The position numbers were made by a program, and so were the translations under genes. Below, piece after piece: positions 3,165 through 42,505 of a stretch of 46,802 nucleotides of DNA (within the stretch, counting starts at the first letter, position 1; each line of letters starts with the position of its first letter). Below the pieces are notes generated by a model, which saw only the letters and a program-made list of their open reading frames with translations, made no database searches and was not told the origin of the DNA. The stretch comes from a virus: IMG/VR virus record IMGVR_UViG_3300028835_000205, positions 1 to 46,802 of that record. The stretch is one strand, 5' to 3'.

Positions 3165-3178
3165 CATCAGGTTAGCAT

Positions 3179-3612: not shown

Positions 3613-3645
3613 TAGAATCGCCTTCGCCGCCTGGAGGAATAGACT
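3613..3645 (+). promoter_or_regulatory. Repeated intergenic element, copy B (with ribosome-binding site)
   Basis: TAGAATCGCCTTCGCCGCC is followed by TGGAGGAATAGACT and ATG 3646. A TG two bases upstream of TAGAAT makes an extended -10-like TGnTAGAAT, without a good -35. Closely related to copy A (3374) and copy D (6186). Confidence 0.4.
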
Positions 3646-3876: not shown

Positions 3877-4235
3877 TGCCTGAGTTCAACGAAAAGAACC
3901 TGGAGAAGGCAGCCCAGGCGCTCCGGATCCGGCTGATGATCGGCAGAAGCAAACCGCATGCGCCGGCATTGCGTCCGCATACCTGGATATTCCTGCGTCA
4001 GCCTGGTAACGAGGAAGACCCAGCGATCTGCCTGGGCATTGTCTTTCATGTCTGGGCTATGCGGAAGTACAACATGGTCCGCTTCACGGCTCACACCCAC
4101 ACCGGCAAAGAAGTCAAAACATCAGGGCTGCTCACCAAGCTCGACAACGGTGAGGATGGCCTGGTCCTCGATGTGCGCTGGCCCTGGGAGACGTTGCTGA
4201 GGGAGTTCAAGGGGCTCAGCGCCGGAGATCTATGA
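3876..4235 (+). CDS. Hypothetical protein upstream of the large terminase
   Basis: ATG 3876 overlaps the preceding stop and gives 119 residues; a GTG three bases earlier is possible. It starts with a basic helix (NEKNLEKAAQALRIRLMIGR), then becomes beta-rich with several Trp and His. By position it could be a small-terminase equivalent, but I see no helix-turn-helix or coiled coil typical of small terminases, so the role is open. The next gene starts two bases after its stop. Confidence 0.55.
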   Translation: MPEFNEKNLEKAAQALRIRLMIGRSKPHAPALRPHTWIFLRQPGNEEDPAICLGIVFHVWAMRKYNMVRFTAHTHTGKEVKTSGLLTKLDNGEDGLVLDVRWPWETLLREFKGLSAGDL

Positions 4236-4236
4236 G

Positions 4237-21578: not shown

Positions 21579-22384
21579 TGGCTGATACATTCACTAACCA
21601 ACTGCGCCTGACCAAGCAGAGCGACCAGGAAAACGTCAACATCTGGGGCAACAATTACAACGATGGTGTAATTACCCTGGGTGAGGCTGCGATTGCTGGT
21701 CGAGTCGATCTTGAGGTCACGTTTGGGAGTGTTGAGCTGAGCCTGGCGAATGGATCTTCGGATACTGCCAGGCCCATGTTCTTGCATGTGATCGGCAATC
21801 CAGGTGAGCCCAGGGTCATCACGGTTCCTCCGCTGCAAAAGTTGTACGTTGTCTCGAACGAGACCGATCCACCGTTTGATGTAGAGGTCAGGACCTCGGT
21901 TAATCCAGGACGACTCGTTCCTCCTGGTGAGAAATCATTCGTGTACGTTGATCAGGCCGGTAGCATTGTTCGTGCGCCAACTGATGCAGCCGGCGACACG
22001 GCACTGGTGATGGAGGCTCCGTTTGAGGGTCAGCTTTTCAATATCAGCAATGCGACTGCCGGGCAGACGCAGGTCCTGATTACATTTTCGGCTCAAGGTG
22101 GTTTGACAGTTGTCAGGATCCCACTGATCGATTCGACCATCAGCACCAATCTTTTCACTTTTGTTCCAGTAGGTCCGGTCAATCCTGGCCTGGTGCCGAG
22201 TGGGCCAAACTTCAACGAATACGATCTGTGCATAAAGGAGAATGGTGTCCTGGTCGAGTGCTGGTTCCGCATAGCCGGATCCGGCCCGGTTCAGATTAAC
22301 CCCTCTGCCGGAGGGCAATTCACACCAGGGTCTCAGCGGGTAACTCAGTATCCGCTTGAGTTCATTATTCATCGAGGGCTGTAA
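21578..22384 (+). CDS. Tail-fibre-like protein, third paralogue
   Basis: 268 residues. N-terminal domain: NQLRLTKQSDQENVNIWGNN, AAIAGRVDLEV, VIGNPGEPRVITVPPLQKLY, SFVYVDQAGSIV. The C-terminus (about 140-268) is again different from both neighbours, with a beta sandwich and a GGQFTPGSQRV segment. Overlaps the hub gene by one base (TAATGG), so all three are made from one message. Confidence 0.65.
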   Translation: MADTFTNQLRLTKQSDQENVNIWGNNYNDGVITLGEAAIAGRVDLEVTFGSVELSLANGSSDTARPMFLHVIGNPGEPRVITVPPLQKLYVVSNETDPPFDVEVRTSVNPGRLVPPGEKSFVYVDQAGSIVRAPTDAAGDTALVMEAPFEGQLFNISNATAGQTQVLITFSAQGGLTVVRIPLIDSTISTNLFTFVPVGPVNPGLVPSGPNFNEYDLCIKENGVLVECWFRIAGSGPVQINPSAGGQFTPGSQRVTQYPLEFIIHRGL

Positions 22385-25300: not shown

Positions 25301-25713
25301 TGTTGGCTCCATACGCTACCCAGGGCGGCAAGTTATTCCTGCACGAAACAGGCGTGGATGACTCTGACGAAGATGGTGTCCTGCATCCGATGAACTCGTT
25401 CATCGAAACCTACGATGCTGAGATTGAGCCAGGCGGCCAACACATAATGCACATTGCCTCGATGATCCCGGACTTCAAGAATCTGGTCGGCTCGATTGAT
25501 TTGATCCTGACTGGCCGGCAGTATCCCCAGGATCCAAGTGATGAGGTGACCAAGGGACCATTCACGATTCTACCGACTACCAAGCGCATCGATATGCGGA
25601 TGAGAGCCAGGCAGATCTCGTATCGGATTCAATCCGATGCACTAGGCGACGATTGGCGCATGGGCACCTGGCGAGCAAACGTCAGGCCACATGGGAGACG
25701 CGGCGGTGGGTAG
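22384..25713 (+). CDS. Tail hub / packaged-DNA stabilization protein (P22 gp10-like) with LamG insertion
   Basis: 1109 residues. The start (LVELEIGPGVLTEETARGAF, then DRIRFRQLLPEKLGGW) and the C-terminal two-thirds (FLGFARALHDWVDLDGERWL, LRIWSLDNFGEDLLAAPSAG, ENFQDWVPT, VFFMGEDDFLIYDG) match the layout of the P22 gp10/T7 gp12 nozzle family, which closes the tail channel. P22 gp10 has about 470 residues. Much of the excess is a lectin-like insert at about 140-385, with YTEKSNNALSANFIG, FTIEGWAFFNSF, WYHFVMQASAGGVLSLWFDG and LDDVRITVGVARY, typical of LamG jelly rolls. The hub would hold fibres; the insert would project and bind ligand. Confidence 0.75.
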   Translation: MARGNLVELEIGPGVLTEETARGAFGRYKDGDRIRFRQLLPEKLGGWILAPIGTAPGNVDNANSQFTGLSATYIIGASSIPLEGTFSVLDGDPIWLFGTSLTGVWGTRTINDVAAVEGAFIFDLDAAVTASLGDACVIEYPAEFGGAGDASFASVALLADQDGPNGATVYTEKSNNALSANFIGSAQLDTSQKKWGSASCFFLAAGSYQEYPDDPAFSLGSGDFTIEGWAFFNSFPAVGDEMTLVSQWSIGTSSDRAFAVSVIQDGGAIRFRGEATSVFEQGSLPAGSTNTGQWYHFVMQASAGGVLSLWFDGLLEFEAPVIFGPMNDSTETVKLGVYDPGGGANAGWFDGYLDDVRITVGVARYPTGGNITPPTAAFPTSGGAGGASIIGGGTVGSEVLVLDQPINTYITAQTIVRIDLDGGGVHWTKTVTNIIAGTSTIQIQNGLPAVPALGNNINLYCATSDIVDDVNELSYVVRFLSAPIAAATTVRLTESLPCDADGNNVNIFPFQQVTANGDQAATSSLSITPVTTIANADGSGFAESIVVAPKFETEQTCFLGFARALHDWVDLDGERWLAIGTDVKLYLVNQGTLFDITPLRQTGILTDPFDTVLGDQTVTVNDVAHGGAVGNFVRFSGASIVGGLDLNGEFQIGAVIDANSYTIEADFPATATASGGGTVLFEYDIDVGASGNVTVQGWGTGPYGAGLYGFGSTVTGIAVALRIWSLDNFGEDLLAAPSAGALFHWDLSLGTTSRAVLVEEAPATIQWMLVSPEARHVIAFGAGTGNAVAPGEPDKLLIRWSSSENFQDWVPTSINTAGDLRLDKGSAIVTAVESRGDIIIMTDESLHAMQFIGGALVFSLRHLGQSVAIIGPNAGVDVNGIVFFMGEDDFLIYDGVLRVLDCDVRNQVFDDLNGAQGFKVFASVNKLFTEVWWLYPDESSETNTRYVKFNYKDLVWDYGTIERTAFHDSSAFLLAPYATQGGKLFLHETGVDDSDEDGVLHPMNSFIETYDAEIEPGGQHIMHIASMIPDFKNLVGSIDLILTGRQYPQDPSDEVTKGPFTILPTTKRIDMRMRARQISYRIQSDALGDDWRMGTWRANVRPHGRRGGG

Positions 25714-27855: not shown

Positions 27856-28401
27856 ATGAAGAAGGTGAAGATTCGCAGGGCAACACCCTGGGATGTGATT
27901 AAGGTCGCGCATTTACTGAAGCGAGCGGCTAAGGAACAACGAGAGGATATTTGGTATTCGACGATCAGCATCAATGAAACGAAGCAGATCTTCCACATAC
28001 TGAGCCTGATTGATCAGGGTTTTGTCGTTGTCGCTGAGACGCACGACCAGAAACAGATCGTAGCAGCGATGGGCATGTCGATCGCGAGAGATGACTGGAG
28101 CGACGACTGGGTAATGCAGAACGATTGGACATACGTTTTGAGAACTTGGAGAGACACGGATGTTGCCGACCAGCTTATGAAAGCGGTCGAGAGATTTGCG
28201 GATAAAAGTGGAGATCCGGCGACAGGGAAAGGGTTGCCAATCATTATCGGAATGATGACTGGCCGCGACACCGACTTGAAAGACAAGTTGATGGAGCGCA
28301 AAGGCTACCAATATGGTGGCGGCAACTTTGTGAGGGCACCAAGAGATGTCCAAAAAGAAAAAGACAACGACTCAAGAACGGAAGATCCCGCAGTGGCTTG
28401 A
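27856..28401 (+). CDS. GNAT-like acetyltransferase
   Basis: 181 residues following AGGAGACAGCC. N-terminal strand-helix KKVKIRRATPWDVIKVAHLL, a central VVVAETHDQKQIVAAMGMSI strand pair, a WRDTDVADQLMKAVERFA helix in the place of the acetyl-CoA loop, and RKGYQYGGGNFVR at the end give the GNAT order. The pyrophosphate-binding loop is degenerate (RxxxVAxxL instead of Q/RxxGxG/A). Related phage GNATs sit between tail and internal-protein genes, with unknown substrates. The C-terminal tail (about 163-181) overlaps the next gene in another frame by 56 bases. Confidence 0.6.
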   Translation: MKKVKIRRATPWDVIKVAHLLKRAAKEQREDIWYSTISINETKQIFHILSLIDQGFVVVAETHDQKQIVAAMGMSIARDDWSDDWVMQNDWTYVLRTWRDTDVADQLMKAVERFADKSGDPATGKGLPIIIGMMTGRDTDLKDKLMERKGYQYGGGNFVRAPRDVQKEKDNDSRTEDPAVA

Positions 28402-29443
28402 GGCAGGTAGTCAGCAAGCGGTAGCGATGGGTCGGCGTATTGCCGATCGTCCCTACCAGGAATATGAAGGCCAACGATTCGCTGAACTCGATCCGAATGA
28501 GCAGGCAGCGATGGAGATGGCAGCTACCGAAGGTGGCGCGTACCGAGCTGATGTAGAACGGTCGCGAGAATTTGCTGAACGGGGAGGGCAGTCTTTCCTC
28601 GACGCCGATATTCAGGCGTACATGAATCCCTATATCCAGAGCGCATTAGAGCCTGCGGCTCGTGAGATGCGTGAGGAAGGAATGCGCCGGCAGGTCGCGG
28701 CAGGTCAGGAGGCTGCCATGGCTTCGGCCTTTGGTGGATCCAGGGCTGCCATCATGACATCCGAGGCCAGCGGCAAGAGCCTGGAAGCAATCTCAGATCT
28801 GTATGAGCGCGGCTATGCTTCGGCATTCGAGTCCGCGGCGAATCGATTCGAGCAAGATCGTGTAGCGGCACGAGCCGCTTCAGATCAGTTCCGAGCAATC
28901 GGAGCAGAGGGCCAACAGATGCTCTCCAACGAGATGAACAATCTCCTGGTCACAGGCGGACTGCGCCGGCAGTTGGAACAGGTGAATCTCGACTTCGATT
29001 ACATGGAGTTCGTTGAAGCCAGGGACTGGGACATCACCAATCTGCAACCGCTCCTGGCTGCACTCAGCACCGTACCCTACAGCGAGACCCAGACCACCAC
29101 CGAACAGACCAGTGGTGGCACATTCCAGGCAGTCCTGGGTGCGGCGACCACGGTGGCCGCGGCCTACTTCACTGGCGGCCTGAGTACGATGATTAAGGCT
29201 GGAGCCGATAAGGGCGGAGACGAATCCGACATCCGGTTGAAGGATAACGTCGAACTGATTGGAAAGTATGGTGAGTTCAACTGGTACAGGTGGGATTGGA
29301 ACGATGCAGCCAAAGCAATCGGCTGTGACGAAAACATATCTGAAGGCGTGATGGCTGATGAGGTGATCGTTACCAGGCCAGATCTCGTGGGGCGCAGGAA
29401 TGGCTACTTAACCGTTGATTACGGGAGGATCAGTCATGGGTAG
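28346..29443 (+). CDS. Internal virion (ejection) protein candidate with S74-like C-terminus
   Basis: 365 residues. A basic start (MSKKKKTTTQERKIPQWLEA), then Ala/Glu/Arg-rich helices (about 30-240, e.g. NPYIQSALEPAAREMREEGM and MASAFGGSRAAIM), a short hydrophobic stretch (ATTVAAAYFTGGLSTMI, about 265-282) and a C-terminal domain from SDIRLKDNVELIGKYGEF (about 294) to YLTVDYGRISHG. 'SDxRLKxN' opens the intramolecular chaperone of S74 fibres. Helical rods before the giant gene are typical of ejection proteins; the helical part and the chaperone end make an odd mix. It overlaps the GNAT gene by 56 bases. Confidence 0.55.
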   Translation: MSKKKKTTTQERKIPQWLEAGSQQAVAMGRRIADRPYQEYEGQRFAELDPNEQAAMEMAATEGGAYRADVERSREFAERGGQSFLDADIQAYMNPYIQSALEPAAREMREEGMRRQVAAGQEAAMASAFGGSRAAIMTSEASGKSLEAISDLYERGYASAFESAANRFEQDRVAARAASDQFRAIGAEGQQMLSNEMNNLLVTGGLRRQLEQVNLDFDYMEFVEARDWDITNLQPLLAALSTVPYSETQTTTEQTSGGTFQAVLGAATTVAAAYFTGGLSTMIKAGADKGGDESDIRLKDNVELIGKYGEFNWYRWDWNDAAKAIGCDENISEGVMADEVIVTRPDLVGRRNGYLTVDYGRISHG

Positions 29444-30770
29444 ATTGCTTGAAGAATATATCGCCACAAACGTCCCAGCATTAGAGGACATCGTTCGTGG
29501 CGGCATCCAGCAACCTGAAGGAGCGATGACCTTTCCAGGGCCACAGGAGCCAGAGGCACCCTTACAGGGCCAACCTATCGGCCCAGGTGGTGCGCCAACA
29601 GGGCCTATGGCGGCATTGCCAGGACCAGGTGGCATCAATCCAGCAGCAGCAGCAACTCCTACCTTTGCAGGCGCACCAGATCCAGGAGGTACGCAACCAG
29701 CGATTCCACCTGTGCAAGCTCAGCAACAGCCAGATAGAAGTGGTGAGTTCGAGCCTGGGCCTGACAGCTTTGCCGGTATGTCTGAGACCGCTAATCCAGA
29801 GGACATAAATAGCGCGACCGCCGCGCTGGAAAAAGCCCTCAATGAGAAGGGCTCGTCAATCGATGAGGAGCATGCCAAGACCACAGGCGGCGAGGTCGAG
29901 GAATCTGAGGACGATCCGGAAGGCAAGTCCAAAGGCGAGGGCCTGACCAGGCAGGAGAAGGGCCTGATTCTGATGGAGTTCGGCTTGAACCTGATGGCTC
30001 AGTCCGGTACGGGAGAAGGCACCCTGGGCGGCGACATCGGCATTGCTGGTGGAGCTGCACTCAAGGGTCACGTAGGTCGCAAGCAAGCTGCAAAACAGGC
30101 CGCGATCGACGCTCAGGAGCGTGAGCAAAAGCGGCGTCTCACAGAGGCGCAGATCAAGAAAGCCGAAACTCCAACCGCAACGATCAAGACCGACAAAAGC
30201 GGAAACTACATAAGCATCTCGGAGGGTGTATCGACTCCGATCCTGGATGCAAGTGGTGAACCAGTTAGTGCGGAAAACGCCGAGAAATTTGCTTCTGAGG
30301 TTGATCGTCAGGCTTACGAAGAATTGGAGTGCGAAGGTCTATCAGGATCTGCATTGAAGGCATGTAAGCGTCGTGCGCTTGCCTATGGGACAGGCGGAGG
30401 AGCGAAGGTTGCATTCCCAGAATTAGAAGCGGCTGACCAGGTTGATCGAGTCAGAAAGGATCTTGACGATCCTGATCGTAAGAGTCAGAAACATCATGTG
30501 CCAAGCGCCAACAGAAAGATTAAATGGAAGGATATGACTCCTGAGCAGCAGGATGAAGTGGCGAATACTCGTGTCGATAAGAGAATGGAAATCGTCCGTC
30601 GCTATGCCACTCAAGGTGGTGAAGGTGCTGGTGCCGCGAAGGATACAACCGGAATCCTGGAGAAACTGTCTCCTGACGATCGTGCCAGGATCAAACCAGG
30701 CAAGGTCTATACGTTAGAAGATGGCAGGAAATTCAAGATGGTCAATGGTGTGCCTCAGATTGTAGAGTAA
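29436..30770 (+). CDS. Internal virion (ejection) protein candidate, low-complexity
   Basis: I choose ATG 29436, preceded by GGGAGG and overlapping the previous gene by eight bases. 444 residues: a short helix (MGRLLEEYIATNVPALEDIV), a Pro/Gly/Ala-rich disordered region (about 30-105), an acidic patch, a Gly-rich membrane-active-looking helix (LILMEFGLNLMAQSGTGEG), a charged helix (KQAAKQAAIDAQEREQKRRL) and a basic C-terminus. Such proteins are packaged with DNA and help its passage. It ends in a TAATGG junction with the giant gene. Confidence 0.55.
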   Translation: MGRLLEEYIATNVPALEDIVRGGIQQPEGAMTFPGPQEPEAPLQGQPIGPGGAPTGPMAALPGPGGINPAAAATPTFAGAPDPGGTQPAIPPVQAQQQPDRSGEFEPGPDSFAGMSETANPEDINSATAALEKALNEKGSSIDEEHAKTTGGEVEESEDDPEGKSKGEGLTRQEKGLILMEFGLNLMAQSGTGEGTLGGDIGIAGGAALKGHVGRKQAAKQAAIDAQEREQKRRLTEAQIKKAETPTATIKTDKSGNYISISEGVSTPILDASGEPVSAENAEKFASEVDRQAYEELECEGLSGSALKACKRRALAYGTGGGAKVAFPELEAADQVDRVRKDLDDPDRKSQKHHVPSANRKIKWKDMTPEQQDEVANTRVDKRMEIVRRYATQGGEGAGAAKDTTGILEKLSPDDRARIKPGKVYTLEDGRKFKMVNGVPQIVE

Positions 30771-33700
30771 TGGCAGAGCTTTCAATCATATCCGAAGAAG
30801 ACGAGGAGGAGCAGGAGCCTTTAGCGGCAGCTCCGAAGCCAGGGCTTTTATCGATTGTTGATGAAGCCGACGAACCAGAGATTCAGGCTCCACCTCCGGC
30901 TGCAATTCCAAAGCCAGAGCCCTTGTCGATTGTTGCGGAAACCGAAGATATAGCGTCTCCGGTGAGTCGTATTGATATTGGATCAGACGAGGAGCCTGGT
31001 TTCCTGACTCGTGCATTCGATTCGTTCCAGGCGTGGCGTGATGAAACGAAAGCCGAGATGAAGCGAAACGCTCCTACTCGTGAAGAACGCCAGCAGATCA
31101 CCAAGGACAACATCAAGCTCAATCGTGAGCTGTTCAGCAACAAAGGTGGTGGTCAGTTTAGCTTTGGCAGTTCCAGGCCGGCACCGCATTCTGCCCTGGT
31201 ACGCGCCGGCTTGGAGGAGCCACCAGAAAATGAAGTAGAGAACGCACTGAATGATTATCTGCGCCCGAATGCAGATACTCCAGGCAGGCCATCTCCCGAA
31301 GGCCGGCTGAAGAAAGAGCGAGAGCAATGGGCCAGGTATCCAAAGGATCAAGCAGGTTTCCTGATCGATCCAACCAGGCCGATTGTTCAAAATCCAGATG
31401 GCAGTTCGTCCAGCGAACTCAGCATAACGATCGACGCTGATGGCCGCTGGTTCAATATCCCATCCATGGTAAATGGCAAGCAGGTTTCCCAGGAGGAGGC
31501 GATCGAGAGCGCCCGTAGCTGGGCGAAGAAAGGTTGGATCCATCCGAATTTTGCTACCCAGGAAGAAGCGGTGGCGGCGGCTGGGGCCCGTTCAGATTAC
31601 CTTCCGACAGCCAGGGAGGAGTGGGCAAACCGCAAGCCTGACGAGCCGAAAGAACCGAGGGAAGAAAAGCCGGAAGATCCATGGGGTTTGGTGCTATGGG
31701 ACACACTGACCAACGTACCAGCGGGATTCAAGCGGCAATATGGTGGCGCGAAGATGTTCCTGAATGCGCCACGAGATCTGGCATACATTTTGGAGGCTGC
31801 TTCAGACCAAGGTGTTGCCCCGGAGGATAGCTTTGCCCTTGAGGTAGAGGCTTACGTCCAGGGCAAGGAGCCGGCTGAGTATTACGGTGAGATGCTGAAA
31901 GAAGCGGAGAACAACGCCGACCTTCAGGAAGGTCTGCGGATCCACCAGGAAGCGACTCAATACCTACAGAACTATCAACCGAATGTCCGGGAGGATTCGG
32001 CCAAGTATTACGCTGGAGCCATCATCGAAGGCGCGATCAATATGTCTCCGATGCTGATCACGACTGCTGTAACCAGGAGCCCAACTCTTGGCCTTGCCGT
32101 TATGGGCGGCCAGGTATTCGCTGATCAGTACGCTGAGTCAATAAGCCGAGGTCGATCGCACAGTGAAGCAACGCTGGATGGCACCGTGTTTGCTGCTGCG
32201 GAGATGCTGACTGAGAAAATACCGCTTGGGATTCTGACCAAAGGAGGTGGCACCTTACTGAAGCGATTCTTCAAGGCTGGAGGCGCTGAGGCGATTCAGG
32301 AGCCTGTGACCCAACTTATTCAGGAAGCCTACACCATGGGCATCATCGAGGATGAGATGACCTTCGGTGAAGCCCTTGTTGAGATTGTCACAACCGAAGA
32401 AGGCAGGGCCATGCTGAGGCGATCAGCCATCATCGGTTTCGGTGTTGGTGGCACCCTGGCTACTGCGGTGCATCCACTCTACAAGGATGTGGTCGATGAA
32501 GGGGATGTTGATCCAGATGGTGGTCCTGGTTGGATTGATCTTCCTGAGACAGGGCCTGGTGGTAAACCACTGAAGAAAATGCCATCCGAGATGGACCGAG
32601 AAATCTCGAAGGAGGAGGCCGACGAGCTTGGTCTGTCTGAGGTGGATGTTGATGTGGATCTGTTGGAGCGTGTTGCTGCCGGCGACCCCCTGACAATCGA
32701 TGAGCAATACACCCTGACCAACGGGAAATACGGCATGTTTGTTGGTGCCGAGGAACGGGTGATGCTGCTGCCGAAGGGCCTCAAGGAACTCAAGAATCTG
32801 CGAGAACGGGCTGCCGGCGAAGAAATCATCATGGAAGGTGAGGAGATCACCATCAGGAGAACCGGCGAAGCGATCGACATTGCTGAGCCAGTTGAGCCAG
32901 GCGTGGTTCGACGAGCGCAGCGAGTGATGGAGGAATACGCCAAGGTCCAGGAAGCTCATCCAAAGGCCATGACAGCGATGACTCCGGCGCTGAAAACGAA
33001 GATCGATAATCGCTGGAGTACCTTAACTCCTGAGCAGATGGACGAGATCATGACGGTCTTCGAGGAGTTTGAAAAGCTGCCAGCAGGAGACGAAGCAAAA
33101 CTTAGGAAAGACCTCGAAATCTTGTTGAAGCAATTCCAGGAGGCAGCGAAGGGCGAGCCAGACGAGGACGAGGAGTTGGTTCGATTCAAGAGACGAACCA
33201 GGCGCTTGTTTGCCGGCGAGCAAGTAACGAAAACGGAGCATGACACTGACAGGGTGACAGTCCCTGAGCGATTGAAAGATCTCGTGGGCCCGTTACCTGA
33301 ACTACAAACGCATCCATTGGCCAAGGAACCAACAGCTCCGAAGCGAATGGTCAGTAATGAGTGGGGATCTGGTGTGCGGCAGCGACTCAGGATGGCCTAT
33401 CCAGGCGTCACCGATATGGCAATCGAGACCGCTTTCCAGGAAGGTCAGGGCATTGAGGGCCTGCTTGTCAATTTACGCAACAAGCCTGCCTCTGTGACAG
33501 CCGTGCAGAATATCAATGCGATGCTGGGAGCGATCGACAAGCTCGTCGAAAAGTACGACATGCTCAGGTCAGAGATCGTGGCAGAAGAAGACGAGATCAG
33601 CCCGATGGAAGTCTTCAGATCTGATGTCGTTGAATCTCGCAGTTCCGTCAGGGCTCGCCTGGATGCCGTTCAGCGTCGAGTAGAGGAACCAAAGAGCCCA

Positions 33701-36700
33701 GAGCAGGCCGAGGCCGGCAACTATCCGAAGGGGCATCTGCGAGTCGATTCAATTCCTGGAACGATTGAGACCAAGAAAGGCGGAACCAGGAAGGGTATTG
33801 ATCGAAAGGGTAAGCCATGGCAATTCAAGATGAAGGATGCCTACGGCTACCTGAAGGGCACTGAGAGCAGGGAGCCTGATGGTCGAGGTGGCTTCGATCA
33901 GATCGATGCGTTCTTTGGTCCATACCTGGATTCAGGCCATGCGGTGATCATCAACCAGAAGAAGGATCCAGCGAAACCGATGTCCCTGGAGAACTTCGAC
34001 GAGCATAAGATCATGCTCGGTTACCGGGACACCGAGGAGGCACAGGAGGCGTACCGTCGCAACTACACCGATGGTGGCGCACAGATGGGCTCAGTGGTCG
34101 CGATGACGACTGAGGAGCTGCGTGAGTGGCTGGAGACTGCCAATACGAAGACACCTGCCGTTCTATCGGAGGTGGTATTCGTGCCTGGCAGAGGTGAGGT
34201 GGACTTCCGTCCATTCCAGCCGGCCATTGACGCAGCTCAGGCGTATGCCGATGCCAATGACATCGAGTACGAACCAGCAAAAGAGCGAGCCAAGATCGAC
34301 GTTCGCCGGGCTTCGATGATTGCCAGAGAGTTCACCAGGATGGAGCATGATCCGAGTGATCCGGCTGTCGCGGCAGCTTACCAGGCAATGATCGATGAGA
34401 CCCTGGCACAGTATGAGTATGTCCTGGAGAGCGGCCTGGAGGTCGAGTTCGTCAAGGGCAAGGATCCGTACAGGAGCCCCAGAGATGCCATCCTGGACAT
34501 CCGTGAGAACAATCACCTGTGGGTCTTGCCAACACGAGAAGCCTTTGGCACTAGGGCTGAGTTCGAGGCGATCGATAATCCCCTGCTGAACGAGACCAAG
34601 TACAAGATCTCTGGCAAGGTAGCTCTGGCGAACGACATATTTCGAGTGGTCCACGATTACTTCGGCCACCTGGCGAATGGCTTTGGCTTCCGCGCCAGGG
34701 GCGAGGAGAACGCTTGGCAGCACCACGCAGCAATGTATTCACCGCTTGCCAGGCGAGCCATGACCGTAGAGACCAGGGGCCAGAATAGCTGGGTCAATTA
34801 CGGGCCTCATGGTGAGACGAACCGCACAGCATCAGCCGCGGATACCGTGTATGCTGACCAGAAGATCGGACTCCTGCCTGTTTGGGTGTCCGAGGAGGGT
34901 AGATTAAGTGCCAAACGACCAACTCCTGAAAGCCGCCCAACAGAGGGCGGAGAGCTTGTTGCTCCGCCAGTCTCAGCAGAAGGGCGCATCACCCTCACGC
35001 ACTACAGCCGGCGAGCCGACATCGACCGGATCGATCCCAGCTTCTATGGCCAAGGGATCCGCGGAGCCGAAGGGCAAAGGGCGCAAGCGTTCCCGGAAAC
35101 CTGGATCGACCGCACGTACTATGGTATCTCACCGGAACTTCCGGGTGGGTATCGGAAGGAATCGGGACTAGGGCCTGAGACCTATGAGACGAGCATCGAC
35201 GCTCGTCTGTTGTATGACCTCCAGGTTGATCCTGAAAACCTGGCAGCAACTCCAGATCTGAATGAATCCGAGGCAGCCATCCGTGACGCCGGCTATTCCG
35301 GCTATTGGCTGAAGCACCCAAGTCTCGGCCTGGTGTCGGCTGTCTTTGATCCACTCGAAGTCGAGACGAAGAAAGGCCCATCAGCGAGAGCCAGGCGTAA
35401 GACGAATGCCGGCAGAGGTCAGTCCGTTGATGATGTGCAACAGATCCTACAAAAGATCTATCGGATGTTCCGCACTGTGCCTCCGGTACGAGTGGTCGAG
35501 TCCATCGAGGACCTGCCGCGGCATCTCCAGGTGTCTATGGAGGACGAGCATTCCAAGAAAAACACCACCGGGATGTATGACCAGGGTGCCTTCAACGATG
35601 ACATTTACATCATTGCCAATAACGTCAGCTCCATGGCGGAAGCGGTCGAGACCCTACTGCATGAAGTGGTTGGTCACTTCGGCCTCCGGCAAGTCATTCC
35701 GCCATGGCGATTCGATGAGTTCATGGACATGGTGGCCAAGTCGTTCCCGAAGCAGGTCAGAGAAGCAGCGCGGAGTTACGAGCTGGACTGGAATGATGTT
35801 GAGGAGCGCCGGATTGCTGCGGAGGAATACATAGCTCACATCGCACAACGAATCTTGGCTGGACAGACCGTATCGCAGAGAGCCAGGGAGATCTTGGATA
35901 GGATCGTCGAGGCTCTACAGAATGTAGTTCGCTGGATGACTGGCCAGGAGCAGATGTTCACCACTGGGCAGATCATGTCGGTCATTGCTCAGTCGAGCGA
36001 CTTCGTGCAACGACCAGGTGGTTATCAGAGATCCAAGCGGCGAGGCCGGCTGCGTCATGTCAGTGCCCCATACTTCTTCTCCCAGGTGTGGACTGCATTC
36101 AACGAGACCGATACTAAAGCCACCTCTGTCGATGGCTGGTATCAGTTTATGAAGGGCCAACTCAAAAATGGAAAGATAAAGCAGGCCGAACTCGATTGGC
36201 TGGGCCTGGGTGATGCAAAGAATCCTGGTTGGCTGGCCGAGGCTACCTGGGGCCAGATGTATCAGCTCACATCAGACCACAGCTATGGACGACGCACCAA
36301 CTTCGAGGATGTTGAGAAGCTGTTCCCACCACCAATGTTTGCGGTCTTCAAGGAGCAGCGTGAACTGGGCGCTGAGATTCAAGGGATTGCAGAGAAGGCC
36401 AAGGCTGCTCAGCAGCAAGCATGGGAGGAAGCCTTTCCGACCACGGAAAAACAGGCCAAGAAATATAACCGCGAAGCTCAACAGTTCAAGGATGACTGGA
36501 AGAAAAATCCTGAAAACGATCCGATGCAATTCCTTTCTGTCAATGAGCAGCGCGATGCTGCTTTGATGGATGAGCGGCACGAGGAGTTGACCAACCAGCT
36601 CCAAGAGTTTGGTCGCACAAAACCGAAGAAGATCCCAAGGCATATCATTCAATCGTATATCGAGCGCAATGGTGTGGACATCGAGGTCAAGGAACCTGGT

Positions 36701-39700
36701 AATCCAGAAGAAGACTACGGCCCACCTGACTGGAGCGAAGACTATCCGGATGAGGAGGATTCACCGGAGGAGGATACGTGGTACGACCATTGGGAGCCCA
36801 TCGAATCAGAGAACTGGGGATCCTATTTCGATACTCAGCAAAGAGAGGTCTGGGCAGAGCATAACTGGAATCCAGATCTTGAAGCTGATCCGGACATTCC
36901 GGAAGAAGCAGACATGGACACCGAGGAGCTGAACGAAGCTCTCGGTGCCTGGGATGGGACCAGCGAAGAAGACATGGAGGAGGAAGCCAACGATAAAACC
37001 AGAGAGGCAATCGAACTAGATTTCTACGACGAGGCGCGAGAGGAGTGGGAGAAAAAGAATACCAAGAGACGATGGTACTCCGGCAACTATCAGATGATGA
37101 CGGATGACGATGGCGACTTCCGAATCTATGACGATCAGGGCGGTGACCTCGGTTATTACAGCACCTGGGAGGAAGCAGCGGACGCTGCCGAGGAGCATTA
37201 CAACGAACAGACTCATGCCTGGGCAAGCTACATGCTCAAGCCTGCCGGCAAGGATTACGGGGTGCTGCTATTCCGTTGGGAAAATCCAGACAAGCAGTTG
37301 TTCACAGAGACCGCTCACTGGGAGGAGGACGACAATTTCGTAGCTCATGTTCGCTTCGATATTCGCAAAGATCCTGATGGCAACGAGGTTTTCTACATCG
37401 ATGAGATGCAGTCCGATTGGCATCAGGAGATTCGAGATACGATCAAGGCCAAACTGAAAGAGATTCACGCTGAGCATGGTTTCGATAAGGATTACGACAA
37501 CAGAGATGGCACCTTTGGTGGTGGCGAGGAATACGATGGCACACCTCCAGAGGTCATGTACGAGAAGGCCAGGGCTGAATCACTTGATAATCCAAGACTG
37601 AAGCAACTGCACAAAGATCTAGCTCAACAGGATTTTAAGGCCCTCGCTAAGTCGAGAGAGACGATCGTCGAAGAACTGAAATCCTGGCCAATGACGAAGG
37701 ATATGTCAAAGCGTCTCCAGGCTGTCCTTACTGGCGAATACTCAAATAACTCAATCGATCTACTTGCTGGCTATAGAGCGGATCTGGCCTCAAGACAAGC
37801 GTCCGCTGACACTGCTTTGGAACAACAGGAAGGAGAGATTCAAGCCAAAGTATTTGAGGACCATGGCTTCTACCATTCTCTCGGTGAGGCGAGCAACAAA
37901 CTGTTCGCGGCCTATCGAAAGATGCGAAAAAGTGAGCGCGGTGAACAGTATAACGCTGAGCTGATTTCCAGAGAGGAGTTCGATCAGTATGTGAATCAAC
38001 AAGCCAGGGAATACGGTTTAACCACTCGTTTGATCTATGCGACCAGAAATACAGGCGTGACTGCTGGTGTCGATTTTTCTGAATGGATGGAGAGACAGTG
38101 GGCAGCAGGCAACGCTCAAACGATTGACCGTAAAGCTATTAACTCACCACGAGTTATATCTGAATGGGACGGAACGCCGCAGAAGGAAATCGAGGCCGAG
38201 CGGGAAGAAACGGCTATTGCCCAGCTCATGGATGAGACGCGAGATGAGACTGATCTGCCGGCAGGAACGAGGAGGCAAGGCAAGATATACAGGACCGCTC
38301 AAGCGAGAGATTTTAGTCAAGCGACCTGGACGAAACTAATCGAAGATGCAAGCGGCGATTCGTCTAACTGGGATCGACACAACGCATCTGAGTTGTGGAA
38401 GGTCTGGTCGAGTTTGGCTGATGCGATGCACAAGATTTCGGCTGCTGACCGTCAGCCATTGCCTGGGCGTGGACCAGTGCCAGGCTTCTTTGATTACGAT
38501 GCGCCGAGAGGTTTGCAAACTACTGTCCGCGCTCAAATTCTGAGCTTTGATGAGAACATCGGGAAGTATCAAAGATATGCAGATGGCCAGAGCTTCGCGC
38601 CATTCGAGAAGGATTGGCAGCTACTGGTCATCAAACACATGATCGCTGAAGCGGCCAGGCGTGGCATGCCACGGATCTACTTTTCCAAGGGCGAGGTTCA
38701 TGGGGTTCGCTGGTCAGGGGCTGAGTCGGTTGAATCACTTGAGTTTGTTAAGCATCCAATCCCTGAAGTTGAGCAAGATCCAACACCAGATCTTTTCACC
38801 GGAGAGATCACGCCGGTCAAACGTGGAGATGCTTTCACGATCGATCTGTTAGTACCTGGAGCGAATCAACTCGACATGAAGACGACCAACAAGCAGCTTC
38901 GGAAGAATGTTGGTGATCGTGTAGCCAGGCTCATCCTGGGATCTGAAAAAGATAGAGGAACCATTCGAGCGGAAGACGCCGGTCTAAGGGGCATCCTGGT
39001 TCCACGAGGTAGTAGCAGGACGTTGAGTGGATCCAGGACCACGTACAACGAGGTCGCAGTCAACAGCATCAACAAGTTCCTGAAGAAATTCAAAGGCAAG
39101 GTGAAGGATGTCTGGGTGCCTGGTGATAACAGTCAATCGTCCAGGGATGAGGCGGAACGGTTAGGTGTTGCCACTCTTGGTCAGCCTGGCAACGAATACG
39201 AAAAGTGGGATAACGCACGGCTCAGGCGACTGACGACTCCTGAAATCCATCGGTTTATCGAAGGTGGTCTCGACTCTGATCTAGTGAAACAAGGCCGGGA
39301 GATGTTTGACCTGGAAGATAGAGGCGTCTGGGGAATCGAAACACGAGCCGAAGATGGCTTTTACGAATTTAATACTCATGCCGGCTTCTTGCCAGGAAAA
39401 CCAAGAGCGGTTGAGCGCCTGCACAATCTCATGCGACAAGAAGGCGAGAAGGACTGGGGTTACGAAGCCTGGGAGATTGAGATCACGCCGAAGCTGGAGG
39501 AGACCGCGAAGAAAGGATTCCCGCTATTCCACAAACGAGGCAAGCCGAAGACTGGCGACACTGGTCTGGACAATGCGCTCGAATGGGCGAGGAAGAATAT
39601 CGGTCCATCAGGACCACGATCGCTTGAGCGACTGCAAAGACAGATCAGCGAAATCATCAACATCGAACGTAAACAGATGAAGTTGGAGCAAGCTCTGATC

Positions 39701-42505
39701 GATCAGTTCGCCGGCCTGAAGTGGGCAATCAGACAAACGCATGGTCACGAGCTGCCGGCACAGATGTCAGCGTACAAGCAGGCTCACTTCACCACCAGCA
39801 TGGATTCGCAAATGTACGTGTTCCTGACCCACGGCATTCCGGTGTGGGAGACGGTAACGACTGCCGAAGGTGAGGGCACGATCACTGGCATCAAGCCAGG
39901 CAGCAAGGGTCTCCTGGAGGTCCTGGAGCCGGTTGCTGACAAGATCACGTACTGGGGCTATTGGATGGCTGCCAGGCGAGCCGATCGTCTGCTGAAGGAA
40001 GGTAGGGAAGCTCTGTTCACCCAGGAGCGTGTGGACGAGCTGCTGAAGTTAGGCGAGCGATTTCCTGAGTTCCAGGATGTGGCTGACGCATACAACGACT
40101 GGAAGACGCAATTCCTGGACTGGGCATCAGAGGCAGGTGTCATCAACGAAGACACCAGGCCGCTGTGGGATCAGGCAGATTACGTGCCGTTCTACCGCAT
40201 CAAGTCCGACGAGTTGGGCGGATCCTTTGCCAAGCGAGCCGGCATGGGCGGCCCAGGAATTGCGAACGTAGCACAACCGATCAAGCGTCTCCGTGGAGCC
40301 AAGCATCCGCTCGGTGACATCCTGGAGAACATCATCGTCAACTTCCAGCACATCGCGACGACGACGATGAAGAACAAAGCTGCTCAGCTTGCAGTCGAAA
40401 ATCTCAAAGATTCTGGGCTGCTCGTGCCGGCACCACCAACTGCTTTCCTGAAGGAGGAGTTCATCCCTATGGATGAGCTGAAGCGTAAGCTCAAGCAAGC
40501 TGGTGTTGACTGGGAAGCTATGCCCACCGAAGCACTGGAGAGCATGCAGAAGATGTGGACCTTGCAGCGACCTGTTGGAGATGACTACATCTCGGTGCTG
40601 TACAACGGAAAGAAAAAATGGTTTGAGGTCCGAGAAGAAACGCTGCTGAGATCTCTCACAGCGATCAATGAGAAGAAATTTTCAAGCGTGATGGGCCGAT
40701 TTTTCATGTGGCCATTGCGAAAGGTTAAGCGCCTCGGCACCACCTTGATCACGCTCGCTCCAGATTTCATGGCGGCGAACTGGTTCCGAGACATCTTTTT
40801 GGCATTCGCGAACTCGCGTCATGCGAAGTTTCCCAAGCCATGGTCGGCAGCGACCGGAGCCTGGAAAGCGTTCACGAAGTCGCCTGAGATGGTGGCCATG
40901 ATGGCTGCCGGTGGCGCTTTTTATTCTGGCTACATCAACGCCAACGATCCGGTATCAACGGTCAAGGCGATGAAGCGAGCCTTGCGTCAGACAGGATTCA
41001 AAAACCGAATCCTGGATGCACCATGGAAGCTGTTCCACCTGTACAACGACATCGGTGCAGCATCCGAGAATGCCAATCGAATTGGTTCTGGCTACATCCC
41101 TGCGATGAAAGCTGGTGCCGGCAAGGCCGAGGCAATCTGGGAAGCCAAGGACTTGATGAACTTTGCCAAGCATGGTGATCATGCCGCGGTGCAATTCTTC
41201 GTTCAGTCCGTGATGTTCCTCAATGCCAGGGTCCAGGGCCTGGTTAGATACGGACAGCGATTCACGGAAGCCCCAGGACTGACGTTTGCCAAGTCAATGA
41301 TGTATGCCATGGCTGTACTGATGATCTGGCTGAAGAACAAAGACGATGATAGATACAAGGCACTACCTCCAGACGACAAGGATATGTACGTCCATTTCTG
41401 GACCAATGGCAAGCACTGGCGTCTCCCGAAATCCTTCGAGCTGGGCATGATCTTTGGTGTCGGCATCGAGCGCACGTTTGAGTATTACTACTCCAATGAA
41501 GATGACGCCGGCAAGGTAGCGATCGATCGAATGTGGTGGGTCATGGGTGAAGTTTTCAATATCCTGGGTCCGCGGTTCCCGTTTGTTCCTTTACCGCAGG
41601 CCATCACTCCGTTGTATGAAGCGACGAACAACTGGAACGCTTTCTTCCAATCACCGATCGTTCCTGAGTACATGCAGGACATAGCCGAAGTGAAGCCGGA
41701 GATCGTCTTTCGTCCTACCACCAGTCCGACAGCTCGCGAGCTTGCCAGGGGATTACCGAAGTGGGCCCCAGCGACGTTAAGGAATCCAATACTTCTTGAA
41801 CATCTGGTTCGTGGATATTTTGGGACCTTGGGCGCTTACGTGATGATGATGAGCGACGACTTGGTTCGGAAGTCGTTCGATTATCCAGCCAGGCCAGACC
41901 TCAGATGGGACAAGATGCCTGTAGCAAGGCGCTTCTATACTGGCGATGATCCGCCATCGAGGACTTCGTTCGAGGAGGTCATTTATCAGGTACGCCAGAA
42001 TGCCAGGGAGATCGAGCGAGCTGTCAGCCAGATGGAGAAGCTGGAGATGGAGGACGAGATCGATGCGTTCATGGAGCAGCCATCAAAATACGATTCAACC
42101 TTCACCAACGAGCAGGTCGTCGAAGCATCCAAGGCAATGAAGCCCAGCTACAACGAGATGAAGCGTATTCGCAAGGAGATCACGGAGCTGTGGGAAGACG
42201 AGGAGATGAGCGGCGAGGAGAAGGGCATAGAGCTGAATAATCTTCTGCGGGATAAGTTGGAGGAAGCCAAGGAAGGTTGGTTGGAGCGACCAGGATCTTC
42301 GGAAAATAAAGAGGATGAGCCACCGAATGCTGGAGCTGTTATCCAGTTCGAGGCATTGCAGGACACCCTCATAGATCTATCGCCAGAAGACCGGGTTGAT
42401 TATTTGGCTGAGCAAGGTCTGGATAAAACTGCGGATCTGTTGGTCTCATTGCCGACGAAGCCGAGCAGCAGGCTTCGCAATATCATGCGGGAGAACTCAG
42501 TCTGA
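30770..42505 (+). CDS. Giant polyvalent protein (3911 residues), probably ejected with the DNA
   Basis: Domains in order by eye: 1-60 acidic with repeats of PKPxxLSIV; about 200-280 a small domain (LSITIDADGRWFNIPSM); about 410-570 hydrophobic helices; about 980-1125 an inorganic-pyrophosphatase-like domain of the polyvalent type (NYPKGHLRV, AYGYLKGTESR, DQIDAFFG with D1043 and D1046, FDEHKIMLGY); about 1180-1380 a His-rich domain (H1295-DYFG-H1300, H1318/H1319, ETRGQNSWVNYGP); about 1405-1535 an ART-like domain (H1411-Y1412-S, GIRGAEGQRA, YYGIS); about 1570-1700 a metallopeptidase (H1631-EVVG-H1636, later AEEYIAHIA); about 1980-2090 very acidic; about 2140-2660 an unnamed domain (AHW, DEMQSD2216WHQ, then IKHMIAEAARRGMPRIYFSK); about 3320-3800 an LPD38-like region (LITLAPDFMAANWFRDIFLA) and a final coiled coil. 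Position after the internal proteins and the one-gene architecture match the DarB/polyvalent class known to be carried into the host. Confidence 0.8.
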   Translation: MAELSIISEEDEEEQEPLAAAPKPGLLSIVDEADEPEIQAPPPAAIPKPEPLSIVAETEDIASPVSRIDIGSDEEPGFLTRAFDSFQAWRDETKAEMKRNAPTREERQQITKDNIKLNRELFSNKGGGQFSFGSSRPAPHSALVRAGLEEPPENEVENALNDYLRPNADTPGRPSPEGRLKKEREQWARYPKDQAGFLIDPTRPIVQNPDGSSSSELSITIDADGRWFNIPSMVNGKQVSQEEAIESARSWAKKGWIHPNFATQEEAVAAAGARSDYLPTAREEWANRKPDEPKEPREEKPEDPWGLVLWDTLTNVPAGFKRQYGGAKMFLNAPRDLAYILEAASDQGVAPEDSFALEVEAYVQGKEPAEYYGEMLKEAENNADLQEGLRIHQEATQYLQNYQPNVREDSAKYYAGAIIEGAINMSPMLITTAVTRSPTLGLAVMGGQVFADQYAESISRGRSHSEATLDGTVFAAAEMLTEKIPLGILTKGGGTLLKRFFKAGGAEAIQEPVTQLIQEAYTMGIIEDEMTFGEALVEIVTTEEGRAMLRRSAIIGFGVGGTLATAVHPLYKDVVDEGDVDPDGGPGWIDLPETGPGGKPLKKMPSEMDREISKEEADELGLSEVDVDVDLLERVAAGDPLTIDEQYTLTNGKYGMFVGAEERVMLLPKGLKELKNLRERAAGEEIIMEGEEITIRRTGEAIDIAEPVEPGVVRRAQRVMEEYAKVQEAHPKAMTAMTPALKTKIDNRWSTLTPEQMDEIMTVFEEFEKLPAGDEAKLRKDLEILLKQFQEAAKGEPDEDEELVRFKRRTRRLFAGEQVTKTEHDTDRVTVPERLKDLVGPLPELQTHPLAKEPTAPKRMVSNEWGSGVRQRLRMAYPGVTDMAIETAFQEGQGIEGLLVNLRNKPASVTAVQNINAMLGAIDKLVEKYDMLRSEIVAEEDEISPMEVFRSDVVESRSSVRARLDAVQRRVEEPKSPEQAEAGNYPKGHLRVDSIPGTIETKKGGTRKGIDRKGKPWQFKMKDAYGYLKGTESREPDGRGGFDQIDAFFGPYLDSGHAVIINQKKDPAKPMSLENFDEHKIMLGYRDTEEAQEAYRRNYTDGGAQMGSVVAMTTEELREWLETANTKTPAVLSEVVFVPGRGEVDFRPFQPAIDAAQAYADANDIEYEPAKERAKIDVRRASMIAREFTRMEHDPSDPAVAAAYQAMIDETLAQYEYVLESGLEVEFVKGKDPYRSPRDAILDIRENNHLWVLPTREAFGTRAEFEAIDNPLLNETKYKISGKVALANDIFRVVHDYFGHLANGFGFRARGEENAWQHHAAMYSPLARRAMTVETRGQNSWVNYGPHGETNRTASAADTVYADQKIGLLPVWVSEEGRLSAKRPTPESRPTEGGELVAPPVSAEGRITLTHYSRRADIDRIDPSFYGQGIRGAEGQRAQAFPETWIDRTYYGISPELPGGYRKESGLGPETYETSIDARLLYDLQVDPENLAATPDLNESEAAIRDAGYSGYWLKHPSLGLVSAVFDPLEVETKKGPSARARRKTNAGRGQSVDDVQQILQKIYRMFRTVPPVRVVESIEDLPRHLQVSMEDEHSKKNTTGMYDQGAFNDDIYIIANNVSSMAEAVETLLHEVVGHFGLRQVIPPWRFDEFMDMVAKSFPKQVREAARSYELDWNDVEERRIAAEEYIAHIAQRILAGQTVSQRAREILDRIVEALQNVVRWMTGQEQMFTTGQIMSVIAQSSDFVQRPGGYQRSKRRGRLRHVSAPYFFSQVWTAFNETDTKATSVDGWYQFMKGQLKNGKIKQAELDWLGLGDAKNPGWLAEATWGQMYQLTSDHSYGRRTNFEDVEKLFPPPMFAVFKEQRELGAEIQGIAEKAKAAQQQAWEEAFPTTEKQAKKYNREAQQFKDDWKKNPENDPMQFLSVNEQRDAALMDERHEELTNQLQEFGRTKPKKIPRHIIQSYIERNGVDIEVKEPGNPEEDYGPPDWSEDYPDEEDSPEEDTWYDHWEPIESENWGSYFDTQQREVWAEHNWNPDLEADPDIPEEADMDTEELNEALGAWDGTSEEDMEEEANDKTREAIELDFYDEAREEWEKKNTKRRWYSGNYQMMTDDDGDFRIYDDQGGDLGYYSTWEEAADAAEEHYNEQTHAWASYMLKPAGKDYGVLLFRWENPDKQLFTETAHWEEDDNFVAHVRFDIRKDPDGNEVFYIDEMQSDWHQEIRDTIKAKLKEIHAEHGFDKDYDNRDGTFGGGEEYDGTPPEVMYEKARAESLDNPRLKQLHKDLAQQDFKALAKSRETIVEELKSWPMTKDMSKRLQAVLTGEYSNNSIDLLAGYRADLASRQASADTALEQQEGEIQAKVFEDHGFYHSLGEASNKLFAAYRKMRKSERGEQYNAELISREEFDQYVNQQAREYGLTTRLIYATRNTGVTAGVDFSEWMERQWAAGNAQTIDRKAINSPRVISEWDGTPQKEIEAEREETAIAQLMDETRDETDLPAGTRRQGKIYRTAQARDFSQATWTKLIEDASGDSSNWDRHNASELWKVWSSLADAMHKISAADRQPLPGRGPVPGFFDYDAPRGLQTTVRAQILSFDENIGKYQRYADGQSFAPFEKDWQLLVIKHMIAEAARRGMPRIYFSKGEVHGVRWSGAESVESLEFVKHPIPEVEQDPTPDLFTGEITPVKRGDAFTIDLLVPGANQLDMKTTNKQLRKNVGDRVARLILGSEKDRGTIRAEDAGLRGILVPRGSSRTLSGSRTTYNEVAVNSINKFLKKFKGKVKDVWVPGDNSQSSRDEAERLGVATLGQPGNEYEKWDNARLRRLTTPEIHRFIEGGLDSDLVKQGREMFDLEDRGVWGIETRAEDGFYEFNTHAGFLPGKPRAVERLHNLMRQEGEKDWGYEAWEIEITPKLEETAKKGFPLFHKRGKPKTGDTGLDNALEWARKNIGPSGPRSLERLQRQISEIINIERKQMKLEQALIDQFAGLKWAIRQTHGHELPAQMSAYKQAHFTTSMDSQMYVFLTHGIPVWETVTTAEGEGTITGIKPGSKGLLEVLEPVADKITYWGYWMAARRADRLLKEGREALFTQERVDELLKLGERFPEFQDVADAYNDWKTQFLDWASEAGVINEDTRPLWDQADYVPFYRIKSDELGGSFAKRAGMGGPGIANVAQPIKRLRGAKHPLGDILENIIVNFQHIATTTMKNKAAQLAVENLKDSGLLVPAPPTAFLKEEFIPMDELKRKLKQAGVDWEAMPTEALESMQKMWTLQRPVGDDYISVLYNGKKKWFEVREETLLRSLTAINEKKFSSVMGRFFMWPLRKVKRLGTTLITLAPDFMAANWFRDIFLAFANSRHAKFPKPWSAATGAWKAFTKSPEMVAMMAAGGAFYSGYINANDPVSTVKAMKRALRQTGFKNRILDAPWKLFHLYNDIGAASENANRIGSGYIPAMKAGAGKAEAIWEAKDLMNFAKHGDHAAVQFFVQSVMFLNARVQGLVRYGQRFTEAPGLTFAKSMMYAMAVLMIWLKNKDDDRYKALPPDDKDMYVHFWTNGKHWRLPKSFELGMIFGVGIERTFEYYYSNEDDAGKVAIDRMWWVMGEVFNILGPRFPFVPLPQAITPLYEATNNWNAFFQSPIVPEYMQDIAEVKPEIVFRPTTSPTARELARGLPKWAPATLRNPILLEHLVRGYFGTLGAYVMMMSDDLVRKSFDYPARPDLRWDKMPVARRFYTGDDPPSRTSFEEVIYQVRQNAREIERAVSQMEKLEMEDEIDAFMEQPSKYDSTFTNEQVVEASKAMKPSYNEMKRIRKEITELWEDEEMSGEEKGIELNNLLRDKLEEAKEGWLERPGSSENKEDEPPNAGAVIQFEALQDTLIDLSPEDRVDYLAEQGLDKTADLLVSLPTKPSSRLRNIMRENSV

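Follow-up and report, generated by a model that had tools for sequence, protein, structure and literature searches.

What kind of protein is encoded by an uninterrupted viral reading frame of 11.7 kb, and how might so long a chain act? We have studied this question for the window, by which we mean the whole 46,802-nt stretch of viral DNA analyzed here (IMG/VR record IMGVR_UViG_3300028835_000205), with coordinates counted from its first letter.

The giant reading frame and its domains

The frame at 30770-42505 on the + strand begins with ATG and encodes 3911 amino acids, and the longest other open reading frame within the same interval has 187. Intact copies are present in two more IMG/VR contigs, L001 (100% identical) and L003 (99.9%), and partial relatives in L002 (69% identity) and L004 (73-74%). 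The likelihood that we are dealing with a chance frame or an assembly artefact is negligible, being ruled out by these relatives, and the protein also contains curated domain matches. The single frame described in an earlier note on this DNA therefore stands. The features of the protein are the following.

30770..42505, + strand: giant open reading frame, 3911 aa, ATG start, intact copies in L001 and L003
31673..32479, + strand: N-terminal helical module N2, residues 302-570, common to giants of PTXU04, Vibrio phages and others
33701..34135, + strand: inorganic pyrophosphatase domain InPase (PF18823), residues 978-1122, Pfam E 2.8e-34
34217..34924, + strand: HDY domain, residues 1150-1385, between InPase and ART, phrog_3170 (function unknown), no Pfam match
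34982..35359, + strand: probable ADP-ribosyltransferase (ART)-fold domain, residues 1405-1530, structure-model match
35468..35920, + strand: zincin-like metallopeptidase MPTase, residues 1567-1717, HEVVGH at 1631-1636, distal E at 1686
37217..37549, + strand: conserved segment B1, unnamed, residues 2150-2260, recurring in other giants (at least 17 proteins)
38447..38749, + strand: conserved segment B2, downstream of B1, residues 2560-2660 (at least 24 proteins)
39680..42277, + strand: helical C-terminal carrier core (the proposed role is discussed below), residues 2971-3836, includes LPD38, conserved in relatives
41345..41923, + strand: LPD38 (PF18857), residues 3526-3718, Pfam E 2.7e-32

In a Pfam scan of the complete protein only InPase (118.3 bits, gathering cut-off 26.8) and LPD38 (112.9 bits, cut-off 27) scored above the cut-offs, and both confirm assignments made in the earlier note. 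The scan gave no match to a DNA methylase-helicase dyad, an RNA polymerase domain or a transglycosylase, and an NCBIfam scan at E 0.1 gave no matches. The same note had described hydrophobic stretches in the helical region. A single 19-residue window exceeds a Kyte-Doolittle value of 1.3, at residues 3503-3521 inside the C-terminal core; the helical region near the N-terminus has none.

Besides its Pfam match, the InPase region is similar to a chain of the solved portal protein 9b41 (E 5.2e-12 against PDB sequences). The match is to the C-terminal domain of chain L, a phage portal protein of 765 aa. Since this chain ends in an InPase-like domain, a solved phage protein carrying such a domain exists in the PDB.

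The metallopeptidase has the HEXX(X)H motif and downstream Glu that characterize the zincin MPTase of polyvalent proteins. Both motif His residues, the motif Glu and the distal Glu are invariant in all 72 aligned stretches of LPD38 relatives (among the matches listed); in the wider alignment A7 (44 rows, L089 set aside) the first motif His is merely nearly invariant. Comparison of the MPTase profile with the zincin C1 of N4 vRNAP gave an hhalign score of 48.5 (probability 78%, 31 columns), where 60 column shuffles reached at most 22.2. The metallopeptidase proposed earlier is upheld by this conservation and by the profile relation to N4.

The evidence for the ART domain is structural. The region gave no sequence match in Pfam, NCBIfam or the PDB, and none of 20 ART-region members matched ART-PolyVal (PF18760) or any other Pfam family; the alignment (A5) was made with L186 and eight ART-only stretches set aside. 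An AlphaFold model of residues 1137-1536, covering HDY and ART, has pLDDT 92.9 and pTM 0.91. Its ART part aligns best with MbcT (Z 6.2, 120 residues), and further matches include ParT, an anti-CRISPR protein, diphtheria toxin and tankyrases. By title, 18 of the best 30 structural matches are ADP-ribosylating toxins, PARPs or tankyrases, and the remaining ones that we take to be ART-fold members were assigned by us and not by title. Each single Z is middling, below 8 and not beyond doubt; the fold is assigned, as probable, because the match list is consistent. The ADP-ribosyltransferase of the earlier note is thus retained as a likeness of the modelled fold and not as a match in sequence. We infer that the InPase, MPTase and ART domains may have the corresponding enzyme activities.

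The region between InPase and ART was absent from the earlier list of domains. This HDY domain has the motifs HDxxGH...GEENAW...ETRGQNSW, and 22 columns are invariant over 68 sequences, including N152, D153, R156, H159, D160, H164, E176, H183, E198, R200, Q202 and N203 (model numbering; alignment A6, with L121 set aside). The pattern occurs in at least 599 stretches of viral sequence, 579 of them confirmed relatives, of which 80 were kept, and 21 of 50 occurrences in bacterial genome contigs were confirmed as relatives. HDY is widespread in giant phage proteins. We regard it as a putative metal-dependent enzyme domain, metal binding being a guess from the motif, and it could be one of the LPD domains of Iyer et al. 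under a model that does not match. Against PDB sequences the best match had E 0.022, to a short stretch of a designed protein, and there was no match to the MPTase profile. Among the best 30 structural matches one row covers the HDY part, the zincin selecase (Z 2.3, model residues 76-203). A literature search on the motif strings found no paper, a weak result as such strings are rarely printed.

Might HDY be a relative of the biopterin-type aromatic hydroxylases? Many of the weak Foldseek matches in the PDB (best E 0.11) are tryptophan, phenylalanine or tyrosine hydroxylases, and HDxxGH is similar to what we take to be their iron-ligand motif. The HDY profile scored 28.8 against 13 bacterial Biopterin_H proteins, above 60 shuffles (at most 21.9), but over just 10 columns, all within the HDxxGH motif. 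The MPTase profile, as a control, scored 30.5 against the same hydroxylases, and no aromatic amino acid hydroxylase is among the 30 structural matches shown for the HDY and ART model. With the similarity limited to the metal motif and the control scoring higher, the identification is not supported, and we consider such a relationship very improbable.

HDY is also found in short proteins (~293-303 aa) of phage-like contigs (L166:7766-8644, L180:7812-8693 and L184:4287-5195), and therefore exists without a giant. Judged from size and order, these genes adjoin terminase-, portal- or capsid-like genes. Stand-alone genes were seen at L196:5836-6717 (294 aa, Enterovibrio) and L198:5926-7215 (430 aa, BD1-7 clade genome), each directly 3' of a 351-aa gene, the two having similar starts; no phage genes are obvious there from the ORF starts. 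The HDY-bearing giants (phage records H1-H8 and L099) carry misleading public labels such as lysin, RelA/SpoT and crystallin beta/gamma motif.

A conserved C-terminal core and a variable upstream region

Which part of the giant is shared with its relatives? A tblastn search of phages with residues 2278-3911 gave 51 records, with the listed matches mainly within ~2965-3840. We compared 93 proteins, comprising that of the window, 12 annotated phage giants and 80 of at least 80 IMG/VR relatives; L001-L004 (near copies or partial) and L098 were set aside. Alignment A2 was limited to the window and IMG/VR relatives, with one sequence for each 85% core cluster, 46 in all. Among the matches listed, the core is present in 92 of the 93 proteins, L005 being the one without it, and in all 92 it forms the C-terminal end, followed by 1-75 residues. 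These proteins are 794-4214 aa in length, some being cut by contig ends. LPD38 ends each of the 11 annotated phage giants L006-L016, and their middles differ: some have helicase and methylase domains, others ddrB-ParB or InPase with LPD3, and in some no domain was recognised. The core also dominates short forms of the protein, making up about two thirds of those of HTVC034P (1229 aa) and ct8d5349 (1280 aa).

The core was modelled (972 residues) as a helical structure with pLDDT 82.4 and pTM 0.79. It gave no profile match worth noting against PDB sequences, and a search of the PDB with the whole model gave a best Foldseek E of 1.3, whereby single subdomains are hardly tested. VIA gave no Z above 6.1, that value covering 61 residues in the last helices. 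Against BFVD there were 60 matches at E<=1e-3, PTXU04 among them; those with names among the 50 listed are mostly called 'large polyvalent protein', and others are labelled RelA/SpoT, methylase or LT_GEWL.

Two contigs, L091 and L093, encode cores 92-99% identical to those of long giants, with 151 and 97 residues upstream of the core; these genes may have been broken in a prophage or may be genuinely short variants. The HDY giants L005:8374-20412 (Nostoc phage Nsp-JY18) and L099:1000-10629 (podovirus ctQRb9) share a C-terminus that is not LPD38, 24% identical over ~1250 aa, which is perhaps a second carrier.

Upstream of the core, the N2 module was found in at least 11 of the 93 proteins, and residues 305-568 used as a tblastn query matched some of the same phage proteins as residues 2278-3911. 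B1, which contains the stretch DEMQSDWH, recurs jointly with B2 in other giants. In the window the two are ~300 residues apart, and they are possibly one enzyme domain with an insertion.

We also examined pairs of proteins with cores at least 90% identical and more than 800 aa upstream in both. Among the matches listed, 91 of 211 such pairs share less than 60% of the upstream region and 68 share less than half; the pairs are drawn from 42 proteins and are not independent. L049 and L052, for example, have cores 99% identical and share 41-42% of the upstream region. The former carries LPD5 and LPD1 and the latter RadC, with LPD3 and ART-PolyVal kept in both. L009 and L092 (cores 98% identical) have a common C-terminal block that starts ~36 residues ahead of the MPTase, and they also share two short stretches nearer the N-terminus.

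Where are the joints? We took one cluster of 29 proteins and recorded the starts of its 405 C-terminal aligned blocks. Most fall into two zones: 109 lie at -320 to -281 relative to the core, and 203 at -120 to -41, which is between MPTase and core. In 19 of these proteins the MPTase itself begins at -248 to -251, and in the other 10 further up. These positions are BLAST block starts from a single cluster, and weak similarity can blur them. In this cluster the joints concentrate around the protease.

Of the 92 core proteins, 70 have a detected MPTase, as do 23 of the 35 clusters formed at 60%; a refined profile raises these numbers to 72 and 24. The domain was undetected in 22 core proteins (20 with the refined profile), some of them cut by contig ends. 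The gap from MPTase to core is 91-129 aa in 33 of the 70 (these counts being among the matches listed), and 1254-1648 residues in the window protein and eight near relatives. In the window protein it is 1254 aa and holds further cargo, and a single cut would therefore free no lone carrier. The simple layout of cargo, protease and carrier does not hold for the window protein itself.

The order of the domains was surveyed with L122 (same contig as L003) set aside, as was the occurrence of B1 and B2. By hand count in L101-L201, HDY lies before ART in at least 14 ORFs and after it in at least 4, before InPase in at least 3 and after in at least 4, and before MPTase in at least 5 and after in at least 3. 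Among the matches listed, all 28 core proteins with both InPase and MPTase, which come from 8 core clusters, have InPase first. HDY being permuted relative to all three, domain order is mostly free. The earlier idea that the order of domains could match their order of exposure in the host is thus rejected, only that of InPase before MPTase being constant.

Gene slot and proposed function

The giant is encoded among virion genes, as polyvalent proteins are. The order upstream is terminase, portal, major head protein and virion structural genes, followed by acetyltransferase, DNA-ejection-family protein, a 451-aa protein and the giant.

22384..25713, + strand: virion structural protein in tail-tubular-B position, tail/ejection module, phrog_3287, E 9.7e-61
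27856..28401, + strand: acetyltransferase-family gene before the ejection genes, phrog_1249, E 7.6e-9
28346..29443, + strand: DNA-ejection-family protein, 365 aa, phrog_4287, E 8.9e-29
29415..30770, + strand: 451-aa protein directly upstream of the giant, in the position of T7 gp15, no PHROG match

The positional counterparts of this slot are T7 gp13-gp16 and N4 gp52-gp50. Homologs of the 451-aa protein were found in L019, L021, L022-L024, L026 and L027, plus L001 and L003. In the product of 28346-29443, the C-terminal ~70-80 residues match proteins annotated as intramolecular chaperone or DNA injection protein, and the N-terminal two thirds match a peptidase S74 protein, unusual for an ejection protein.

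Similar arrangements are found elsewhere. In Pelagibacter phage HTVC034P and Podoviridae ct8d5349 the annotated order is tail tubular/stabilization, acetyltransferase, internal virion protein B-like, a protein of 498-580 aa and the LPD38 protein. L028 has homologs of the window genes at 22384, 27856 and 28346, then a 395-aa gene and a giant, and in Planktothrix phage Pag-Yong1 a 28346 homolog (26% identical, over 67%) is followed by a 533-aa gene and a giant with HDY and LPD38. Evidently the gp16-like slot is not universal among LPD38 giants. That of phiARM81mr lies outside it, with a tail tip fibre gene among the upstream genes; BFVD contains a Siphoviridae-labelled LPD38 protein; and the giants of L065 and L084, judged from lengths and tallies, probably adjoin terminase/portal genes. 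A PHROG scan of 77 of 101 listed genes upstream of IMG/VR giants gave two DNA-ejection and two acetyltransferase matches, and PHROGs therefore do not show the slot as general.

The reading that we favor, and consider probable, is that the giant is a polyvalent internal virion (ejection) protein of a short-tailed phage, with an LPD38-core carrier, a release protease acting in cis and exchangeable enzyme cargo. The frame, its domains, the conserved C-terminal core, the differences in cargo on near-identical cores and the gene slot are all observed; packaging, ejection, release by the protease, and the activities and targets of the enzymes are proposed for the giant. The protein would be packed in the head and leave with the DNA, in place of T7 gp16 or N4 vRNAP. 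The core, the C-terminal ~870 residues, would serve as conserved carrier: it would position the protein in the head and participate in ejection, joining the products of 28346 and 29415 in delivery, while the cargo enters the cytoplasm. The upstream region would be exchangeable cargo, here InPase, HDY and the ART fold. The zincin MPTase, at the border of cargo and carrier in many relatives, would cut in cis after delivery and free the enzymes. Within the first minutes these might change nucleotides as well as host proteins, whether to counter defence or to assist take-over.

Profile comparison found no sequence homology of the core to T7 gp16, N4 C2 or A4 gp27, and the ejection role is therefore proposed from position and relatives. 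The earlier note had seen an ejected multi-effector. Its several enzyme domains are present, and a role in the virion and ejection is suggested by an ejection gene two genes upstream, the gp16-like slot, an LPD38 giant in the virions of phage JC1 and a likeness of the ART model to a chain of the A4 pre-ejectosome; its order of exposure is the part that fell.

Does the protease act after delivery? It might instead process the giant during head assembly, as in prohead-type maturation. MPTases have been proposed as processors of polyvalent proteins, and P1 DdrB, which has one, is cleaved before encapsidation, likely by itself, according to Iyer et al. (2017; PMC5512222). From the same source, N4 vRNAP, with its profile-related zincin, is packaged unprocessed, which argues against processing in assembly. 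In Burkholderia phage JC1, 51 unique peptides of gp69 (15.6% coverage) were reported from CsCl-purified virions (PMC9144972), compatible with full length or fragments alike. We consider processing during assembly somewhat unlikely, and retain cleavage after delivery as the preferred reading.

A second alternative is that the giant is purely a counter-defence polyvalent protein, with LPD38 as another accessory effector domain, traveling as a passive passenger in the head like P1 DarB and having no part in DNA ejection. The P1 Dar proteins are indeed described as packaged, co-ejected and protecting DNA, and LPD38 is also found in long-tailed-looking phages and, probably, beside terminase/portal genes. 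The authors of the work on PTXU04_00025 of Escherichia phage PTXU04 regard it as a putative polyvalent protein that, by prediction, subverts the defence of the host, and its expression was among those toxic or interfering (PMC11879866). The accessible part of the same report describes a large loss of EOP on its knockdown and names no matched host defence, which goes against a purely defensive role, as do the constancy of the core as C-terminal element and the short, mainly core forms of HTVC034P and ct8d5349 in the gp16 slot. Essentiality of PTXU04_00025 does not in itself separate a role in ejection from one in defence. On balance the purely defensive alternative appears to us improbable, and an ejection protein with a carrier core remains our preferred reading.

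We put forward a broader proposal more tentatively, as possible rather than probable. The LPD38 core and adjacent zincin may be a general protein-delivery chassis of tailed phages, in which the carrier stays with the ejection machinery, a release protease is built in and cargo is spliced at recurrent joints around it; HDY would be a widespread metal-dependent enzyme cargo.

The polyvalent-protein family as such is already known, and its members have so far mainly been read as collections of enzymes for counter-defence and take-over. In the literature searched on polyvalent, ejection and LPD38 terms, as far as its accessible text extends, we found no account of LPD38 as a carrier, of joints at the protease or of HDY. 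A constant carrier with exchangeable cargo and a protease at the joint amounts to a delivery mechanism that can be tested. LPD38, a domain with no known function, would gain a possible role, and for the essential PTXU04_00025 the mechanism offers carriage and ejection instead of, or besides, defence. HDY is conserved, lacks a Pfam match and has a chemistry that can be assayed. The architecture of the giant suggests how short-tailed phages might deliver changing tool kits into bacteria and, if the carrier works alone, would explain how these change without rebuilding the ejection machine.

Comparison with known systems

T7 gp16 corresponds to the giant in its slot after gp13-gp14-gp15. It differs in having 1318 aa, and its transglycosylase has no match in the giant; gp16-like proteins have 609-1337 residues according to a review (PMC8954989). 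The core profile found no match in T7 gp13-gp16, with an hhalign score of 15.8 to gp16.

A chain of a pre-ejectosome, gp27 of Cyanophage A4 / Anabaena phage A-4L (9k3a_B; 1717 aa), is encoded in the corresponding gene slot and has a region that aligns to the ART model with Z 5.3. It gave no match to the LPD38-core, HDY, MPTase or ART profiles, and the likeness to ART is therefore by structure only.

N4 vRNAP (gp50) is closer in plan, a giant chain in the same slot in which an enzyme is followed by a zincin and a helical C-terminus. It is described in a preprint (PMC12633501) as the third ejection protein, in place of gp16, with an N-terminal domain, the polymerase, the zincin C1 and, lastly, a helical C2 of ~110 kDa that lacks structural homology. 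Its zincin is related by profile to the MPTase of the giant but has HExxH rather than HExxxH, and its enzyme is an RNA polymerase. The core scored 22.9 against the N4 C2 profile, where 25 shuffles reach 35.8.

P1 DarB, the comparison drawn in the earlier note, is not the closest system, as its methylase-helicase has no match in the giant. The phage polyvalent proteins described in the part of Iyer et al. (PMC5512222) at hand have InPase, MPTase (also with HEXXXH), ART and LPD domains in one chain, near virion genes. Several disparate enzymatic domains, typical of such proteins, are found in the giant as InPase, zincin MPTase and the probable ART fold. LPD38 is listed there merely as a phage-type domain, that part of the paper giving it no carrier role.

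JC1 gp69, a DarB-like protein of 4515 aa, has an LT-like N-terminus, methylase-helicase and LPD3 in place of InPase, HDY and ART. Like the giant it has LPD38 near the C-terminus (4195-4401). Its gene is similarly placed, immediately behind that of a 510-aa virion protein, and an acetyltransferase gene is found further up.

PTXU04_00025 (2197 aa) is shorter than the giant, and InPase, HDY and ART were not detected in it. It resembles many relatives in having the MPTase ~106 aa before the core, and the giant itself in both its N-terminal module (33% identity) and its LPD38 core (28% identity), the latter with a fold match of TM 0.72.
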